Positions 55,074 through 63,442 of a DNA stretch of 64,000 nt are shown piece after piece. The position numbers were made by a program, and so were the translations under genes. This DNA comes from Bradyrhizobium septentrionale. GTDB taxonomy: Bacteria; Pseudomonadota; Alphaproteobacteria; Rhizobiales; Xanthobacteraceae. Each line of letters begins with the position of its first letter. Within the stretch, counting starts at the first letter, position 1. The stretch covers positions 1,878,501 to 1,942,500 of the forward strand of contig NZ_CP088285.1 in assembly GCF_011516645.4 (NCBI RefSeq), written 5' to 3'. The notes under the pieces were generated by a model, which saw only the letters and a program-made list of their open reading frames with translations, did no database searches and was not told where the DNA came from.

Positions 55074-55982
55074 CTATCGCCTCAGTGATTGGATCAGCAG
55101 CTTATTATTCAATTGCTGAAGGATGCCATCAAGCTTTAAGCGCGTCAGAACGCCGACTTTCACGGCGACACCGTCCGGTTCTCTGACGACTCGATCAGGC
55201 AATCTTTTTTTGATAGTCTTTGGAATATTGCTTTCGCGCAACATCTCCGGCGACATATCTTTGAGTGCTGGGTTTTCGATATCGATCACCCTGCCTGGAA
55301 TACGAACTTCTCTAAAGCGCTTTGCGAAGTCAGCCGGGCTCAGCTCGACCATGGCTATGTCGACGGAATGAGTTGACTTGGCCTCTAGACTGAAAGCAGC
55401 TTTCGTTCCTGTCGCATTAGCAATCAGAAAATTGGGCGTAGCGCCTGCTGTGAGCGTGAGCAGAAATTCGATATTGTACCCAATCGATTTTTCCCCGTCG
55501 AACCCAGATTGCAGCGTCGAATTTTGATTGACGAGGTATTGAGACTCGAAGACTCGAACAATCCATTGACCAAGGCCGAGATGCCCTTCAATGAGAATGG
55601 GGCTAGCGGGAGGACATGGATGCCGTGCGGCCTCAATAAAGGCTACGTAAACATTCAGCAGAGCAGTCCTTTTTGCATTCAAAGAGGCGCCGGCGTTGAG
55701 CTCAAGAGGGCTGATGCTTCCAAATGGGCCCGTAAGCGACGATGACGTAACAATGCCGCCCGTCGAATCGACCGAAAGCGTCAATGCCAGACCGGCAGCC
55801 CACCTGCTTAAGTCCGGATACCGCTCGTCAGCTCGAAGAATGCGGTATGCTTCGCCGATTTCACACTTCACCCGTTCTTCGACGGCCGCCAGAGAAACCT
55901 GATCGACTGCCTCGATGGGAAAATTGGCGCAGCCGGTCAGACACATGCCTGCGACTGCAGCCGCGATGCCACGTTTGCCCAT
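55074..55982 (-). CDS. Lipoprotein of unknown function
   Basis: This 302-residue protein has a signal peptide with lipobox LTGC (lipidated Cys18), so it should be membrane-anchored on the periplasmic side. The rest has no recognised domain. A beta-rich middle (GYNIEFLLTLTAGATPNFLI) and a basic C-terminal segment (IPKTIKKRLPDRVVREPDGV) are visible. It lies downstream of the three-protease operon on the same strand, separated by about 560 bases. Association with the proteases is inferred from position only. Confidence 0.7.
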   Translation of the reverse strand: MGKRGIAAAVAGMCLTGCANFPIEAVDQVSLAAVEERVKCEIGEAYRILRADERYPDLSRWAAGLALTLSVDSTGGIVTSSSLTGPFGSISPLELNAGASLNAKRTALLNVYVAFIEAARHPCPPASPILIEGHLGLGQWIVRVFESQYLVNQNSTLQSGFDGEKSIGYNIEFLLTLTAGATPNFLIANATGTKAAFSLEAKSTHSVDIAMVELSPADFAKRFREVRIPGRVIDIENPALKDMSPEMLRESNIPKTIKKRLPDRVVREPDGVAVKVGVLTRLKLDGILQQLNNKLLIQSLRR

Positions 55983-56539
55983 TATTGCCCCTCGCGCATA
56001 TCAACGGTTCCACAACTCCAAAGCGAGCGCAACTCGCTAATCCAAGGTGACGCACGGAAATGGGATCGTGTGACAATAAGGTCGCAGAGGTGGGACCATT
56101 CATCATGCGCTTGTTGTCGCGCAATCGCTCGACGAAACGGCCAATGCCTAGCGCAAAGCGACGAGATTTATGCGCCGTTCGCTTGCGCATTGGGAAAATG
56201 CTTCCACAGAGGTTTAGAAAATCGTTCCAAACTTTCTGATCAGCCGCATCAGCTTTGGCGGCTCGGGCTCTTAGTGCCCAGCAGTTGTCCATTCACGGTT
56301 TAACTCCTCGAAATCGATAGAAAGCTCCGTGGTGTAATCTGCGACCCCTGGAGTTGAAAACCTTATTCAGAGACACACTTCGACTGGGACGTTTTCCAGA
56401 CCGATACTCTCGGCCGAGATTGGACTCGACCAGAACGGCAATCCCTGCGGCCGTACCTCGAATGTCGTGCGTCTTCCACCAGCCTGAAAATTCGGGACAG
56501 CCTAATGCGCACCGTCGACCGCCGTCTAATCTGTGGCAG
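55983..56539. other. No confident gene
   Basis: This 557-base gap separates the lipoprotein and the trypsin-like protease. A leftward 143-codon frame (56292-55861) overlaps the lipoprotein start and is cysteine- and arginine-rich in its second half, so it is not accepted. No terminator stands out. Confidence 0.4.
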
Positions 56540-57745
56540 CTATTCCTTTTGGATGCGGTCGTATACGGGTCGCAACTGTTCTTCGAGATATTTAACTATC
56601 GCAGACGCCTTGGTGCCCTTGTTCTTATTATCGAGCGCATTACAAGCTGCATCCCTGTCGAAACCTGAGTGGTGCAGACCCACCAGGCGTCCGTCGTAAT
56701 CAAAGATCGGGGCCCCAGATGCTCCTGGTTCCGTATCGCAATAGTGTTGGAGCGTGGGTCCTTGGTCCCCCACAGTTGCGACCAGCGAACAGGCGCTGAC
56801 AAGTTTTGGACGACACAGCGCATGATGGACTACGAACACTTGAGCAGGCTTTGCTTGCGAAATTCTTGCTTGAGGTGGCTGTCCCACGCTGGCGCTCACG
56901 CCGAGAGTTGGTTTGACCCGCAAGAATGCGATATCGAGGTCCTTATCTGGCTTAAGAACCTCTTCGCAACTATATTGGCGACTGAGCTTGCTATCGTCGT
57001 AGGACAGGTCAACAATCGCATTGCGACAAACGTCCTTACTCCAATAACTCGTCGAGCTCATGCCCAGACTGCCCCCGCAATGCCAGTTGGTCATGAAAAT
57101 ATCGCTCGCAATCATCACACCCGAGCAACACCAGGAGCGCTTGATGCCGTCTGTGTCGTAGGTCGCGGTCGCAAGCATGCCGACCGTGTCGCCGGCTCGC
57201 TTCATAACGGCATTGCTCACGCTGTAAAGCGCGTCCCAGCGCGGGGTAGCCTGCTGACTAGAAAATAGTCGGACATCAGTCGTTTCAAGCGGATATGCGA
57301 TGCCGGACGTCAATTCGACGACAATGTCGGACGTCGCAGACGCAACTAGATCAACGAGCACCACTCCCTTTGACAAGCGGCCGGTCCAGCGTGTTGTCGC
57401 ATCTGGCGAGAAATCGGAAGGCCCGAAAGACGCAAGCACGTGGTAGTCAAGATCACGTACAACGACGTACCAACCCTTGTCCTGCCCCGACCGTATGGTG
57501 AAGAAAAGCTTCAATGAACTATAAGTCGGGCCAAACCCTGGATTGGCTCGATGAGAGGTGTAGGTGCGGCTCAGTGCAGCACCATCATCAAACCACCGTC
57601 CGAATTCCGTCGTAGCTTCTTTTGGTCGGCATACCAGTGCTTGCGCTAAAGCGTTACCCGACTCAAAAAACAGAAAAAATATAAGGAGGCTGAGCTTACT
57701 TGCAATCCGCAGGCCGAAACCCCTGTTTGGCAACAACCAAGTCAT
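56540..57745 (-). CDS. Exported trypsin-like serine protease (S1 fold)
   Basis: This 401-residue protein has a signal peptide (about 12-35, SKLSLLIFFLFFESGNALAQ). A beta-rich N-terminal domain of about 150 residues has no match that I recognise. A chymotrypsin-fold domain follows, with catalytic His222 (TNWHCGG), Asp271 (KDLDIAFLRV) and Ser343 (EPGASGAPIF). Several cysteines suggest disulphides in the periplasm or outside. Its first 50 bases overlap the end of the subtilase gene, so the two are co-transcribed. Confidence 0.87.
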   Translation of the reverse strand: MTWLLPNRGFGLRIASKLSLLIFFLFFESGNALAQALVCRPKEATTEFGRWFDDGAALSRTYTSHRANPGFGPTYSSLKLFFTIRSGQDKGWYVVVRDLDYHVLASFGPSDFSPDATTRWTGRLSKGVVLVDLVASATSDIVVELTSGIAYPLETTDVRLFSSQQATPRWDALYSVSNAVMKRAGDTVGMLATATYDTDGIKRSWCCSGVMIASDIFMTNWHCGGSLGMSSTSYWSKDVCRNAIVDLSYDDSKLSRQYSCEEVLKPDKDLDIAFLRVKPTLGVSASVGQPPQARISQAKPAQVFVVHHALCRPKLVSACSLVATVGDQGPTLQHYCDTEPGASGAPIFDYDGRLVGLHHSGFDRDAACNALDNKNKGTKASAIVKYLEEQLRPVYDRIQKE

Positions 57746-59816
57746 CTACCTCCTCCAATCGCAGCGCCGTCGTACCCGACGCGCCGCAAAACTGAGCGAT
57801 AGCCGTGGAGCCGCTAAGCGCCTGCAGTGGGCCTAACCGCTTAATTTCATTTGCTACAGCATCTGTCGGTGCGGCGTAGTCAACGTAGAGCGTCCAACGC
57901 GAGGCTCCCGCTCCTGGCATTCGATATATGCGCCGCACGTCGCGGAGCCTTACCCGCACGTCTTCTGCCGACGTTGAATCCCGAAAATCAAACGCATTTG
58001 CTGGCGCTAGTTTTACGTCGCGCCATTTTCCGTTTTGTTTCAGCCAATGCTTCGTCGGATTAAGAAGAGCCAGAATGGGATCAACCACACCGGCGTTGAT
58101 CTTTGGGTTATCTGGATGGGGTACGCCAAAGCTGCCCGTAAGTGGCCGAGAAGTAACCTGTAGTCGTGCCTTCAGTGCGCTACCTTCTTTATAGCTTTGC
58201 GGAAAGTTGCTGATCATCGCGGTCGCGACACCGGCGACATAAGCTGCCGCCTGCGATGTTCCGGGCGTCGCGCTTATTGCTTTCTCTGAAACCCAACCGG
58301 GAACGTTTTCGCCGCCCGGCGCCGCTATGTGGACGAACTTTCGGTCCCCCGCTCCAAAGTTCGCGCTTGGCATAAGTCGTGTGTTCGCGACGCCACAGGG
58401 CCCGCATGCTGTGACCACGAGCACGCTAGGCAGGTCGCCCAGATTCATAGGAAAAAGTGGTGTCGTATTATAGAGTGCCTCACCCGCCGTCCCATCGGCA
58501 GTTTGCCCCGCTGCCGCCACGAGGAATGGCCCATACTGCTTGATTCTACGTTCCAGTGTCCGAACAAAACGCATATTCTCCTGAGGGAGCTGTCCGTATT
58601 GGAGCGCAAATTCCCACTGGTCGAACGAGACCGCTGCAACGAATACGTTGAGCGGCAGTGGATCGTAACTGCGGGCCTGAATTTCGTCGCCCAGTCTGAT
58701 GTGGCGGTCGGCGCTTGAGGGTTCAATTTTGTCCTCAGAAGACACGGTGCCCCACTCAAACGCATCTACTTTCGCGCCTTTTGATAGACCTTGAAACCCA
58801 TACTGCCCGTTGCTCGCGATAATGCCCGCCATGTGGGTCGAATGGTGCAAACCCGACTTGAATTCTACCCACTGGCACATCCAATCCTTCGCGGGCGCCG
58901 TGTCGCCGAATGAAGGGTAGAGGTTTGGCGCTTTGGTCAACGGCACATCGATCAAGGTTACCGTGACCGGGGCCGACGAGTCCGGCAACCCGCGTTCTAC
59001 AGCTGTTTGCGCGTCGAGATCGGGCTCTGCAAGCGTTACGTAATCGTACGGCTCAGCAATGGGAGCACCCGTCTTACAACTATCGCGCAACGCTTGCAGC
59101 GGCATCGCGGCGTAAGCTTTGGCGGGCGGCCGCTGCAGACGCAGCATATCGAAAGAAATGGCGGTTGATTTGAGATCAATGATGTTTGACGCAAAGTCTG
59201 CCGACTGAATATCGCTTTGCGTCTTGAAAAACAGCTGGAAGGCATCGAAATCGACCGCGCCCTTGTTACCCGCGGTCAGATTATTCTCGAGGCCCTCGGT
59301 CAGCTTGGCGTTGAGGTCACCCCAGTTGCTCAGCACCGCTTTACTGCGGGCGACCTCTCGCTCGATCGTTTTTGAATACGATATGGAGGAGCGATACTTA
59401 ACCAGCCCGACATCGGGCACGAGGATGGTTTGATTAGGCTGCAGCTTATACAGTAGTGCCTGCTGCTTGTCGCCCGGATTCATCAAGCCCAACACTTGGA
59501 GGAACGGCTCACAGGGTGGCGGGTATCCAAGTGATACAATGATCTTGCACAAATTATCCGATGGTCCCACCGTGTAGGGTCGACTAGCCAGCAGGCCCGC
59601 GCGCGCGGCAACCGTGAGGACCGCAGCCATGTTCTGGCCAGCGTTACCGCCTTCAAAAGAAACGACAACACCGGGCGCTGTTCGCTTTGTCGGGTCAAAT
59701 GATTGCGAAACTTTACCGCTTTCCGGCAGTGGCTTTTTGTCTTGCGCGACCGAAGCCACCGGCAGCGCGCTCGAAACAAAAAGTGACAGGATCGTAATGC
59801 CTGCAAAGTATCTCAT
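57696..59816 (-). CDS. Exported subtilase with LysM-like N-terminus
   Basis: This 706-residue protein has a signal peptide (ends SVAQ) and a LysM-like segment at about 81-135 (YTVGPSDNLCKIIVSLGY to LQPNQTILVPD) that could bind peptidoglycan. The diverged S8 domain holds Asp290 (VTLIDVP, where DTG is usual), His328 (STHMAGIIAS) and Ser521 (GTSQAAAYVAG). The oxyanion-hole Asn is replaced by Gln438 (AAAGQTADG). A C-terminal domain of about 150 residues ends in a Cys-containing tail. It is the middle gene of a metzincin-subtilase-trypsin operon. Confidence 0.85.
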   Translation of the reverse strand: MRYFAGITILSLFVSSALPVASVAQDKKPLPESGKVSQSFDPTKRTAPGVVVSFEGGNAGQNMAAVLTVAARAGLLASRPYTVGPSDNLCKIIVSLGYPPPCEPFLQVLGLMNPGDKQQALLYKLQPNQTILVPDVGLVKYRSSISYSKTIEREVARSKAVLSNWGDLNAKLTEGLENNLTAGNKGAVDFDAFQLFFKTQSDIQSADFASNIIDLKSTAISFDMLRLQRPPAKAYAAMPLQALRDSCKTGAPIAEPYDYVTLAEPDLDAQTAVERGLPDSSAPVTVTLIDVPLTKAPNLYPSFGDTAPAKDWMCQWVEFKSGLHHSTHMAGIIASNGQYGFQGLSKGAKVDAFEWGTVSSEDKIEPSSADRHIRLGDEIQARSYDPLPLNVFVAAVSFDQWEFALQYGQLPQENMRFVRTLERRIKQYGPFLVAAAGQTADGTAGEALYNTTPLFPMNLGDLPSVLVVTACGPCGVANTRLMPSANFGAGDRKFVHIAAPGGENVPGWVSEKAISATPGTSQAAAYVAGVATAMISNFPQSYKEGSALKARLQVTSRPLTGSFGVPHPDNPKINAGVVDPILALLNPTKHWLKQNGKWRDVKLAPANAFDFRDSTSAEDVRVRLRDVRRIYRMPGAGASRWTLYVDYAAPTDAVANEIKRLGPLQALSGSTAIAQFCGASGTTALRLEEVDDLVVAKQGFRPADCK

Positions 59817-59835
59817 GGTTGTAACTCTAGCTCGG

Positions 59836-60687
59836 TTAGCGGTACAGGTCCCGGTGGCCGCGCTGATCGCTTTCCGAGATCACGAGGTTCATCGTGCCGC
59901 CGCCTCCGCAAAAGTAATGCATGACGGACTTTGGGTCGTACTCCGTCAGCGGCTTGAAGTTATTGTCTTCAAGGTAGCAGCCTGGAACGCCGCGGATCTG
60001 CTCGTGCCGGTAGCCAATAACGTGCCCGAGTTCGTGGCGTAGCACCCCCGTGCGGTCGAAGATAGTCGTGTAAAATTGCGGACCGACGTTTAGATAGCGC
60101 TTGCTTTCGGGATCGGCCGGGAAAAACGAGGCTGCAATGAAGCGCTTTTCTCCCGGCACGTACCGCACGATAAACAACACCTTGTCGAGTTGCGGATTGC
60201 CATCAAACTCCTCCTTGTACTTTATCGACAGCCCGCATTCAGGACACACCCCCTCCCAATCCGCCGCGGCCTTTTTCATATGCTCCACTACCGTTTTGTA
60301 TTCTTCGGGGGAGGAAAACGATTGGCGCGCGACCGCGTAGGTCAGTTCGCGTTTCCCTTTGGCCCAGAAGGTCGGTACGCCGTTCTTGGTCATCACGAGC
60401 AGTTCACCCGTTGGCTTCGTTGCGGGTTGGAAGCCGCGCGCTTGGAACTGGATCGTGGATTTCACCTGTTCCCGGCTCATGAGCAAATCGCCCTCAAGAA
60501 GGTAATAGGTACGGGCAGCGCCGTCCTCTGTAGTCGAAATGGTAGGCAGCTTTTTGAGAAACGCTTCAAATACGCCGTCGTTATCCGGATCGGCGAGTAC
60601 CGCCTTATACTCGTCCTGGCTTTGCGCAACGCAGGCGCCGGAGAGCATCGCGAAAAACGTCAATGCCAGAGCTGTAATTCTGAACAT
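59836..60687 (-). CDS. Exported metzincin-type metalloprotease
   Basis: This 283-residue protein has a signal peptide (ending GACVAQ) and a zinc site HELGHVIGYRHEQ at 218-230, with ligands His218, His222 and His228 and base Glu219. The Met-turn is SVMHYFC at 254-260, so the fold is astacin-like. Cys149/Cys152 (VCPECG) and later cysteines may form disulphides. A propeptide-like region of about 110 residues precedes the catalytic domain. It is the first gene of the leftward protease operon, 20 bases before the subtilase. Confidence 0.88.
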   Translation of the reverse strand: MFRITALALTFFAMLSGACVAQSQDEYKAVLADPDNDGVFEAFLKKLPTISTTEDGAARTYYLLEGDLLMSREQVKSTIQFQARGFQPATKPTGELLVMTKNGVPTFWAKGKRELTYAVARQSFSSPEEYKTVVEHMKKAAADWEGVCPECGLSIKYKEEFDGNPQLDKVLFIVRYVPGEKRFIAASFFPADPESKRYLNVGPQFYTTIFDRTGVLRHELGHVIGYRHEQIRGVPGCYLEDNNFKPLTEYDPKSVMHYFCGGGGTMNLVISESDQRGHRDLYR

Positions 60688-60854
60688 ACCTATTCCTTTC
60701 TAAAAACCTTAACGATAAAAAACGGTCCCGAACGCATGGCGGGCTAATTCCGCGCACGCACAACCCCAGGGTGACGCCTGAGGCTCAACCTTAAAGGTAG
60801 CACAAACATCGTTAGCATATTATAGATTGAGTCTATTTTCTGTCCAGATGAATT

Positions 60855-62543
60855 ATGAAGAAATCGGCTATGCCAAAGATCAGTCGGCGTACCAGTCTCG
60901 CACTCCTCTCTGCCTCTGCTGCCGCGGTGCTCGGGCAAAGGCGCGCCTGGGCCGAAGCGTCGCCGCGTCTTATCGACGTGCATGCGCATCTTTTCAACGC
61001 GACTGACATCCCCGCTCGCAGTTTTCTGAAGATCGTGGTGCTTGATCATTACCCCGAGCAGGGTGTCGAGCGCATGCTAGATTTCGGCGAGCCAGGCGTA
61101 ACGGACTGGCTTGTCTCTCTGTTTGTCTGGATCGTCGCAGGACGCGCGCCCACCGCTCGGGCGGAAATTGATTTTCTGAGCGGTCGCGGTGGTAGCTCAC
61201 TGCCAGCCAGTGTCGATGCTTCGACTGCGGTTACGAAGGAGAAGTTGCGCCAGTTCCTTCAGAGCGCCGGCTCATCGGCCATGGCGAACATGTCGGTGCG
61301 ACCGAATGGATTTGCATCACCGGGTGATGCCGGACGGGAAAAGTTTGTCGACGCTATCCGCAAGGCCGCCGCCCGCGGATTTCAACTATCTCCTGACGCA
61401 CTTACCGACGAACAGACACTTGCCGAAGCGGCATTTCTTTCTCCAACTGACGTGGGATCGTATCTTCGGTGGTTCAATCTCTTTGCGCTCTATCGTCATG
61501 CGCTCGCCGAGCAATTGACGGCCACCTATCGAGCGCAGCAGCTGACGCCCCAACTTATCTGTCCGGCCGCCGTCAACTATTCGCATTGGCTCGATGAATA
61601 TCCTACCTCGCCCTTTGCGGACCAGGTTGAGGTGATGGGACTGGTAGCCAAGCGCTCTCGTGACGTGATGATTCACGGGTATATTGGCTACGATCCGCTC
61701 GCGCAGGTCCATTTTCGGCGCCAGATCGCTGGCAGTACCGATCAACTAGCGCTTATAAGAACCGCGGTGCTTGAGCACGGCTTCCTCGGCGTTAAGCTCT
61801 ATCCACCCATGGGATTTAAGCCCATGGGGAATGCGCCAGGGCAAACATATCCCCAACCTATCCTTGACCGGTTGGGCGGCCACGTAAGCGAAGGTCTAAA
61901 CGAGGCCATGGAAGAGCTGTTTGCACTCTGCACACAACTCGACATCCCGATCCTAGCGCATGCAGCCGCATCAAACGGCGCGGGTCCTGAATACGCCGAC
62001 CGCGCTGATCCAGCGTTCTGGTTGCCGGTGTTTACAAAATACCCGACGCTTAGGCTGTGCCTCGCGCATTTTGGCCGGTTCGATCATCGCTCGAGCGGCG
62101 CCGCACCAGGGAGCGTCTTGCCGGCCGCGAGCTGGGAGTGGGAGCTCGGCAAGTTCGTGAAATCTCACTCGCAACAGCGGCTCTTTGTTGACCTCAGTTA
62201 CCTGTCGCAGGCGCAAGACGTCGACGTCGCCAATCGCAAGAAGCTTGGGACCATCATTAGAAACTTCTTGAATGAGTTTGATCCAAGCGCAGAGCGGATA
62301 CTGTACGGATCTGACTGGATCATGCTTGGTCGTGAATCGAAGAGCGATACCTTCGCGACTGATCTCTTCTCGTTCCTTCGCCATGATGTTGGCCTATCGC
62401 AAGACGCGATTGAACGAGTTTGTTTCCGGAATGCCATTCGCTTCCTCGGCCTTAGCCAAGGCTCGGCGACCCGATCACGCCTTGCAAGTCTCTATCAACG
62501 TTGGCAGCTACCGTCTAAGCGTCTGGCGTTGTTCGACTCGTAG
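60855..62543 (+). CDS. Tat-exported amidohydrolase-family protein
   Basis: This 562-residue protein has a twin-arginine signal (ISRRTSLALLSASAAAVLG) with cleavage expected near AWAEA. The amidohydrolase-2-type barrel is shown by DVHAHLF (His43 and His45), GFLGVKLYPPMGF with the conserved Lys, ILAHAA and LAHFGRF strands, and YGSDWIM with the final Asp. It probably hydrolyses or decarboxylates a small cyclic or amide substrate in the periplasm. It diverges from the metzincin gene with about 170 bases between. Confidence 0.82.
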   Translation: MKKSAMPKISRRTSLALLSASAAAVLGQRRAWAEASPRLIDVHAHLFNATDIPARSFLKIVVLDHYPEQGVERMLDFGEPGVTDWLVSLFVWIVAGRAPTARAEIDFLSGRGGSSLPASVDASTAVTKEKLRQFLQSAGSSAMANMSVRPNGFASPGDAGREKFVDAIRKAAARGFQLSPDALTDEQTLAEAAFLSPTDVGSYLRWFNLFALYRHALAEQLTATYRAQQLTPQLICPAAVNYSHWLDEYPTSPFADQVEVMGLVAKRSRDVMIHGYIGYDPLAQVHFRRQIAGSTDQLALIRTAVLEHGFLGVKLYPPMGFKPMGNAPGQTYPQPILDRLGGHVSEGLNEAMEELFALCTQLDIPILAHAAASNGAGPEYADRADPAFWLPVFTKYPTLRLCLAHFGRFDHRSSGAAPGSVLPAASWEWELGKFVKSHSQQRLFVDLSYLSQAQDVDVANRKKLGTIIRNFLNEFDPSAERILYGSDWIMLGRESKSDTFATDLFSFLRHDVGLSQDAIERVCFRNAIRFLGLSQGSATRSRLASLYQRWQLPSKRLALFDS

Positions 62544-62659
62544 GGAAGGATGGGTCTGGGTCGAGCGCTAACGCTACCGACTTCGACATGCATTACCCTG
62601 TCGTGAAGTTCGAGTCCGCTGAGGCGCCGGTGCCTAAGCTGGAAGCGGGATAGAAGCCA

Positions 62660-62714
62660 TTGACTGATAAGGAATTTGCCATTTGCTTATCAGTCAGCGC
62701 TCCGTCTCTGGATT
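62660..62714 (+). repeat. Palindromic repeat, right copy
   Basis: TTGACTGATAAGG (62660-62672) and CTTATCAGTCAGC (62686-62698) form a dyad like that at 54740-54773. The unit TTGCTTATCAGTCAGC then CGTCTCTGGATT aligns with the three repeats there. Orientation is the same, so the pair are direct repeats about 7.9 kb apart. Confidence 0.8.
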
Positions 62715-62716
62715 CC

Positions 62717-63442
62717 TCAATGCTCACACGCGTAGGAAGTTGGTCCCGTCCGTACCGGCCGGCACGGAGTTGGGGGCCCAGTAGTACGCGCGCCAGGACT
62801 GAAGCCACCCTCCACAACCGGCGCTAGGCCGCCACATTGTGAACCTTGTTCGTACCCGCGCTTGAGAGCTTCGAGCCGCAACGCACGCGGTGGATACAAG
62901 GACGAGCCCTGCTCTGCATATTTGGAAGCAGCGGTAGCGAACACTTGACCAAACAAACTTCGGCCATGATACACCTCAAATCGCTTGATAGACGCGCCGC
63001 CGAACTGATCGGCCTCTAATTCAATCTGCCAGCGGTTCCTGCGAACGTCGCCGACGGAATGTCCGCAAAAGTGATGTCCGGCTTCATGTCCCAGGACTAA
63101 ATAAAACCCTGGTGTATCGCCCGCGGCCCAATCTGGATCATAGGCGATAGTTCGATAGCCTTCTCCTTCGAGTGCAGCGGCGTTGTTCAATCCTAGTATC
63201 CTTCGTATCTGCAACCGCAACGCATTTATCTTGGTGGTGTTGGGAAGCCCCACCAGTTCAACAAGGATTTCGACGTCACTCACGATAGCAGCTTCCATTT
63301 TCATGTTGAGGTCCCGGAATTTTTCCTCGTGGAAGGCGAAGACATCCTTCCCGATCGTCACGCGTTGCGTCGATTGCGATAAAGCCGAGCTCCAACAAAG
63401 GAGAGCCACAAGGCAGCCTGCTCCAGTGCAGATGAATCTCAT
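62717..63442 (-). CDS. Exported HExxH metalloprotease-like protein
   Basis: This 241-residue protein has a signal peptide (GCLVALLCWSSALSQ) and an M48-like zinc site: HEAGHHFCGH at 119-128, with a downstream ELEADQFGG at 141-149 supplying the glutamate ligand. A short proline/threonine-rich tail ends the protein. The start at MRFICTG is chosen for GGGAG six bases upstream. Its stop lies three bases from the right palindromic repeat. Unlike HtpX it has no multiple membrane spans. Confidence 0.78.
   Translation of the reverse strand: MRFICTGAGCLVALLCWSSALSQSTQRVTIGKDVFAFHEEKFRDLNMKMEAAIVSDVEILVELVGLPNTTKINALRLQIRRILGLNNAAALEGEGYRTIAYDPDWAAGDTPGFYLVLGHEAGHHFCGHSVGDVRRNRWQIELEADQFGGASIKRFEVYHGRSLFGQVFATAASKYAEQGSSLYPPRALRLEALKRGYEQGSQCGGLAPVVEGGFSPGARTTGPPTPCRPVRTGPTSYACEH

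Follow-up and report, generated by a model that had tools for sequence, protein, structure and literature searches.

A module of predicted exported S8, S1, and astacin-like protease genes in Bradyrhizobium septentrionale and other proteobacteria

Three protease genes kept together in distant lineages

Do three proteases of different catalytic classes that are encoded side by side in one bacterium form a functional unit, and if so, of what kind? This question is raised by a stretch of 64,000 nucleotides from Bradyrhizobium septentrionale (contig NZ_CP088285.1, positions 1,878,501 to 1,942,500; hereafter the window), for which an earlier note, made from the sequence alone, had described trypsin-, subtilisin-, and astacin-like proteases in one operon. 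We found the open reading frames at the positions described there. The genes of the metalloprotease (MP), the subtilase (S8), and the trypsin-like protease (S1) span positions 56540-60687 on the minus strand, MP and S8 are separated by 19 bp, S8 and S1 overlap by 50 bp, and the catalytic residues of all three proteins are intact. From the gene spacing, we infer that the triplet is presumably read as a single transcript.

59836..60687, minus strand: MP, exported astacin-like metzincin, 283 residues; EGD (E65-D67), zinc motif HELGHVIGYRHEQ (218-230), SVMHY (254-258)
57696..59816, minus strand: S8, exported divergent subtilase, 706 residues; triad D290, H325, S521
56540..57745, minus strand: S1, exported trypsin-like protease, 401 residues; H222, D271, S343; Asp at Ser-6

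Conservation beyond the source genome was checked, and the triplet was found in 10 further loci, in addition to MP-S8 fusions. The S8-S1 pair is present in 16 described loci of alpha-, beta-, and gammaproteobacteria (the window, L002, L003, L005-L015, L035, and L045), 11 of which also have MP. As 14 of the loci were reached via S8 and one (L045) via MP, it is the remaining genes of each locus whose presence is informative. Matches to both S8 and S1 also occur in two further plasmid records (NZ_CP053443 and CP050519); these were left out of the 16, as was L016, which lacks S1 and MP and whose S8 is weak (E 9e-6 by tblastn, 4.5e-15 by profile).

In a tblastn search of 72,556 plasmid records, S8 matched six, and S1 matched 20, the six best of which were the same six that have S8. 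The 14 S1 records ranked below these were not counted; in two of them (L033 and L034), S8 was not found. Four plasmid loci were examined, two with MP-S8-S1 in the order of the window and two with a di-haem protein, S8, and S1 but no MP, and the module is present on plasmids typed conjugative. A scan of one genome per species for 84,980 species with the S8 alignment gave 10 loci. S1 adjoins S8 in all nine strong ones, and MP adjoins or is fused in six of the nine (L007, L008, L009, L010, L012, and L014, the last with broken reading frames). Among the nine genomes behind L007-L015, six have exactly one MP, which is always that of the module, and three have none (E 1e-10). In L035, located in another genome of the order, the arrangement is MP-S8-S1, and S8 and S1 again overlap by 50 bp.

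The module is sparsely distributed among relatives. With the window genome included each time, S8 was carried by at least one of 385 genomes of the class, two of 397 of the order, and one of 398 of the phylum; these counts are lower bounds, as the first pass kept no more than two S8 candidates of each genome for scoring. S8 was also found in one of 18 genomes of the family of G740. Searching 60 relatives with the single MP sequence returned the window MP alone, and when 337 genomes of the class were searched with an MP profile, carriers were found in two cases, namely the window and G213, each with the full triplet. The locus in G213 (L045) is a string of five genes for an animal-type haem peroxidase, an amidohydrolase, MP, S8, and S1. 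Its S1 and S8 match the window families in hhalign profile comparisons (E 6e-29 and 4e-13); an S1 profile search of the 337 genomes at E 1e-40 had given the window only and missed the G213 protein, and the S8 of G213 had been missed by earlier cut-offs. A comparison of contig sizes between the S1 list (66 entries) and the best 120 of 667 MP homologues gave six coincidences versus 0.47 after jitter, which is a hint at further S1/MP co-locations. S8 had no match in 50,697 phage records and no MP relative was confirmed in viral contigs, and a phage origin of the module was rejected on these grounds.

Beyond co-occurrence, the arrangement itself varies. The gene order is MP-S1-S8 in L008 (Bosea), and a single polypeptide comprises MP and S8 in L009 (Roseateles) and L010 (a betaproteobacterium). 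MP-S8 fusions make up four of the 11 S8 homologues in a set of 5.8 billion proteins (P0005, P0006, P0011, and P0009), with two MP domains in P0011. Across nine loci, the three families show correlated pairwise divergence (Mantel r 0.68, 0.62, and 0.79; values reached by 2, 1, and 0 of 5000 permutations) in a test without L014 and L045 and with a partial S8 of L003; shared host descent may contribute to this correlation. As the three proteases are kept together across distant lineages and are sometimes fused, a single functional unit is suggested. Three protease classes that stay together over three proteobacterial classes despite fusion and rearrangement represent a defined, testable unit, a little-noticed gene set of some soil and plant bacteria that gives a functional context to genes annotated as 'hypothetical' or 'matrixin'.

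Catalytic motifs and a possible activation chain

The three family assignments of the earlier note are borne out, clearly by Pfam for the serine proteases and by motifs and PDB profile matches for MP. S8 scored 42.1 bits against Pfam Peptidase_S8 (cut-off 21.8, E 9e-11), and D290, H325, and S521 are invariant across the alignments. S1 scored 54.3 bits against Trypsin_2 (cut-off 27.6, E 3e-14), its profile matches PDB 1arb (E 8.5e-11), and H222, D271, and S343 are invariant in 30 sequences. The N-terminal part of S8 (about 280 residues) and a conserved N-terminal region of S1 have no family match in Pfam. A LysM-like fold, suggested by eye for the N-terminal part of S8, was rejected, as a Pfam scan of 14 members gave no LysM at E <=1.

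MP remained below the cut-offs of both related families (Astacin: 17.0 bits, cut-off 22.5, E 5e-3; Matrixin: 19.9 bits, cut-off 24, E 7e-4). The best PDB matches of its profile are astacins (E 4e-5), and the window protein carries the HExxHxxGxxHE-type zinc motif and, with SVMHY, an SxMHY Met-turn. Because of the Astacin score, we call MP astacin-like and not an astacin. In the best 120 of 667 homologues, the zinc motif is present in 113 and the Met-turn in all; the final Glu of the zinc motif is replaced by Met in L008 and L035. All six window proteins that had been named as having signal peptides indeed begin with a hydrophobic segment, and of the 32 core proteins examined, 31 have a hydrophobic leader, the exception being the L010 protein, whose start codon is uncertain.

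Two sequence features suggest how these enzymes could be connected. The first is an EGD motif in the prodomain of MP, which is invariant in 32 of 32 aligned sequences; among the best 120 of 667 homologues, 118 have it ahead of the zinc motif, versus 3.3% in shuffles. The second is the residue six positions before the catalytic serine of S1 (Ser-6), which we take to correspond to Asp189 of trypsin. Of the 11 loci with MP, 10 have Asp at this position and L012 has Thr, whereas all five loci without MP have Thr or Ser. According to excerpts of a 2023 review (PMC9848320), the prodomains of animal astacins have an FXGDI motif in common, the Asp of which displaces the catalytic water on the zinc, and the bacterial astacin myroilysin is without FXGDI; the same excerpts propose that bacterial astacins are transfers with mostly animal-associated hosts. 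The GD motif of MP resembles the aspartate switch of astacins and may act as one. An S1 that activates pro-MP would agree with the EGD motif and with the trypsin-type Asp, each of which may also have other causes.

In such a chain, MP would be made as a zymogen that is held by the Asp of the xGD motif, as in animal astacins. S1 would then cut after Lys or Arg in the prodomain linker and thereby release MP, and the mature enzymes, together with optional partners such as a RoxA-like di-haem enzyme, a tyrosinase or animal-type peroxidase, an amidohydrolase, or a murein hydrolase, would degrade an extracellular or envelope target. Our preferred explanation is a horizontally moving module with an S8-S1 core, usually accompanied by MP, whose products would be co-expressed and exported and would act together outside the cytoplasm, including the activation chain. 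We favor it tentatively and place it somewhat short of an even chance. If the zymogen logic is true, a single operon would encode a proteolytic cascade of bacteria, and MP would be a bacterial family whose prodomain resembles an aspartate switch, in contrast to myroilysin, which is described without the motif in the excerpts of PMC9848320.

Several observations weigh against this explanation. The activation chain is plausible at the level of motifs, with no cleavage site identified in the prodomain. The five loci without MP are close relatives, so the correlation of Asp with MP is confounded by kinship, and in a set of 66 S1 homologues whose context is unknown, the Ser-6 residue is Asp in 48, Thr in seven, Asn in seven, Ala in three, and unreadable in one. 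The prodomain motif differs from an exact FXGDI, with F in front in one of the best 120 homologues, and it is NGD in the MP of L045 and DGD in that of a Corynebacterium plasmid (L004). The latter carries MP without S8 or S1; MP queries of plasmids also gave weaker matches besides this one. The excerpts of PMC9848320 describe a Cys switch for the myroilysin zymogen. In the fusion P0009 (944 residues), the MP part has HALGH and has lost the catalytic Glu, and the peroxidase of L045 has no clear leader. Finally, the partner enzymes vary and point to no single target. The proteolytic cascade proposed in the earlier note is backed circumstantially by a zymogen-like motif and a trypsin-type Asp.

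By eye, the second MP domain of the fusion P0006 has HQLGH. Fused MP domains with an altered zinc motif (P0009 and P0006) are perhaps pseudo-enzymes kept as a scaffold.

Partner genes, rival explanations, and described systems

The genes beside the module differ between loci. A profile search found RoxA-like di-haem proteins in eight of the 16 (L005, L006, and L010-L015), and PF21419 was confirmed in all four that were scanned (L005, L010, L012, and L014). A tyrosinase occurs in L014 and an animal-type peroxidase in L045, each in this one locus. An amidohydrolase homologue adjoins the triplet in three of 16 loci, which are the window, L014 (33% over 536 residues to the window protein), and L045 (29% over 541 residues). 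Murein hydrolases adjoin in another three of 16: in L035, only a few bases separate MP from an upstream gene for an M23 protein, a homologue of which adjoins the triplet in L002; L002 also has an Amidase_3-like protein (match below cut-off), and L008 has a protein that combines a peptidoglycan-binding domain with a GH19-like part, the GH19 match being below cut-off. Beside the window triplet, no RoxA-like protein, tyrosinase, or animal-type peroxidase was seen, and a RoxA-like partner was rejected, as the three above-cut-off matches in the same genome all lie elsewhere.

The main alternative is a nutritional exoenzyme set, in which complementary proteases, oxidase, and amidohydrolase would jointly degrade a composite biopolymer, in which protein occurs together with lipid, polyisoprenoid, or phenolics, and no activation chain would be involved. 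The RoxA-like proteins fit such a role, as relatives cleave rubber according to parts of PMC6311187 or oxidize oleate according to parts of PMC4496055, and so do the tyrosinase, the peroxidase, and the soil- or plant-associated lifestyle of several hosts. However, the window triplet has no visible redox partner, the Asp of S1 tracks the presence of MP, and the conservation of the prodomain motif points to regulated proteolysis and not to bulk degradation. We rate this alternative as rather unlikely. An envelope conflict or defence module, in which a proteolytic chain would bring lytic or oxidative effectors to bear on rivals, predators, or phage as an exported counterpart of System 3 (see below), appears unlikely to us. 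The occurrence on plasmids typed conjugative, the adjoining murein hydrolases, and a complete Lamassu system (LmuB, LmuC, and LmuA) 4-10 kb past the right edge of the window agree with it, as does System 3 itself, in which peptidoglycan effectors accompany the trypsin and S8 peptidases (excerpts of PMC7159879), but the core proteins have leader-like N-termini, PADLOC gave only weak trypsin and subtilase matches, the module proteins scanned showed no NucA-type nuclease or NTPase match, and S8 was absent from the phage records.

It was also conceivable that common exoenzymes have merely come together by chance in an accessory island. Each of the broad superfamilies is common, and the cluster is indeed located in an island of low GC content flanked by insertion sequences: the stretch at 54-64 kb of the window has 54-56% GC, with the other 2-kb steps at 53-65% and most at about 60%, and transposase-like open reading frames lie to the left (by eye). 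MP-S8-S1 in 11 loci of three proteobacterial classes, with fusions, a changed order, and correlated divergence, refutes this explanation, which we consider extremely improbable. A more far-reaching version of our preferred explanation, a hitherto undescribed mobile extracellular system of proteobacteria in which an Asp-switched pro-astacin, a trypsin-like activator dedicated to it, a subtilase, an exchangeable oxidase (RoxA-like protein, tyrosinase, or animal-type peroxidase), and an amidohydrolase would act on an envelope or extracellular target, analogous in logic but not in descent to the arthropod prophenoloxidase cascade, is in our view distinctly doubtful.

In agreement with the earlier note, which knew of no named system of this composition, we recognized no description of it in open-access full text, the literature covered by our searches. 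The closest described kind is System 3. According to excerpts of PMC7159879, a NucA-like endonuclease is a core component that occurs there with a trypsin-like peptidase, sometimes joined by an S8 peptidase, and a proteolytic cascade has been proposed; the mostly alphaproteobacterial occurrence and the peptidoglycan-attacking partners are further likenesses. The window cluster likewise has a trypsin-like peptidase together with an S8 peptidase. In contrast to System 3, the module proteins look exported and a metzincin is the third member. No Pfam match to a NucA-type endonuclease was obtained in the window cluster or in the module and neighbor proteins scanned (a subset of the open reading frames of the other loci), and no STAND NTPase was seen among the proteins scanned.

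Secreted proteases of different catalytic classes also form the staphylococcal cascade, which consists of the metalloprotease aureolysin, the serine protease SspA, and the cysteine protease SspB, and both cases involve a proposed zymogen chain that includes an S1 protease. The module differs in its families (astacin-like, S8, and S1), in its single string of overlapping genes, in its Gram-negative hosts, and in the order of activation, which would be reversed (S1 acting on the metalloprotease). With astacins (M12A), as described in the excerpts of PMC9848320, MP shares HExxHxxGxxHE, SxMHY, and the succession of signal peptide, prodomain, and catalytic domain, and its prodomain has a motif that resembles FXGDI; it deviates in having EGD (or NGD, DGD) and in its Pfam Astacin score below cut-off. 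Myroilysin, the bacterial relative with a solved zymogen, is without the Asp motif. S1 has the catalytic domain in common with lysyl endopeptidase and V8-type S1 proteases (PDB 1arb) but has the extra conserved N-terminal region and other genomic partners.

Neighboring genes and minor observations

The earlier note had grouped further genes with the triplet. These and two other features are as follows.

60855..62543, plus strand: amidohydrolase with Tat leader; Amidohydro_2 E 5e-20, twin-arginine leader by eye
55074..55982, minus strand: predicted lipoprotein, 302 residues; lipobox LTGC by eye
62717..63442, minus strand: exported HEAGH protein, weakly M48-like; M48 E 0.16, below cut-off
60819..60846, minus strand: sigma-70-like promoter TGGACA-16-TATAAT; consensus match only, within the 167 bp that separate amidohydrolase and MP
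L023 8541-14676 (about 1946541-1952676 of the contig): Lamassu-type operon, LmuB, LmuC, LmuA

Among the proposed companions, the amidohydrolase holds as a part-time partner. It was rejected as a fixed one: of 28 plasmid records with a homologue, five were examined (L026-L030), and no S8, S1, MP, or RoxA-like match was found within 7 kb. The lipoprotein, which had no Pfam family match, and the M48-like gene were rejected as module parts, as the 15 other loci gave no homologue of either at E 0.01; both probably lie outside the module. As for the proposed M48-like protease, the HEAGH motif is present, but the family match is below cut-off. The promoter-like sequence matches the consensus at 11 of 12 positions and is located about 130 bp upstream of MP; the region has seven such sites versus 4.5 expected, and the count itself is not significant.

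Some observations concern single loci. In L003 8887-10936 (Rhizobium johnstonii TP60 pRlX4), S8 is split over two reading frames. In L014 13394-16687 (Sphingomonas sediminicola), tyrosinase and amidohydrolase lie in one frame of 1097 residues, a fusion that may be an artefact, as the middle stretch looks frame-shifted by eye. In addition to the M23 region, the M23 proteins of L035 (6089-7756) and L002 (12573-14498) have another conserved stretch in common (36% over 181 residues), which has no Pfam name.

The LmuA of the Lamassu system has an N-terminus like that of oxidoreductases dependent on flavin adenine dinucleotide and an ABC-3C C-terminal domain 2. In L026 7001-14022 (Rhizobium etli CFN 42 p42a), the amidohydrolase homologue lies about 1.4 kb upstream of a JAB-type/E2-fold pair, which is followed by a TIR and caspase pair. 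At L034 5674-7788 (Mesorhizobium onobrychidis pOM4), Trypsin_2 is fused to Exo_endo_phos, which recalls peptidase-nuclease conflict systems.

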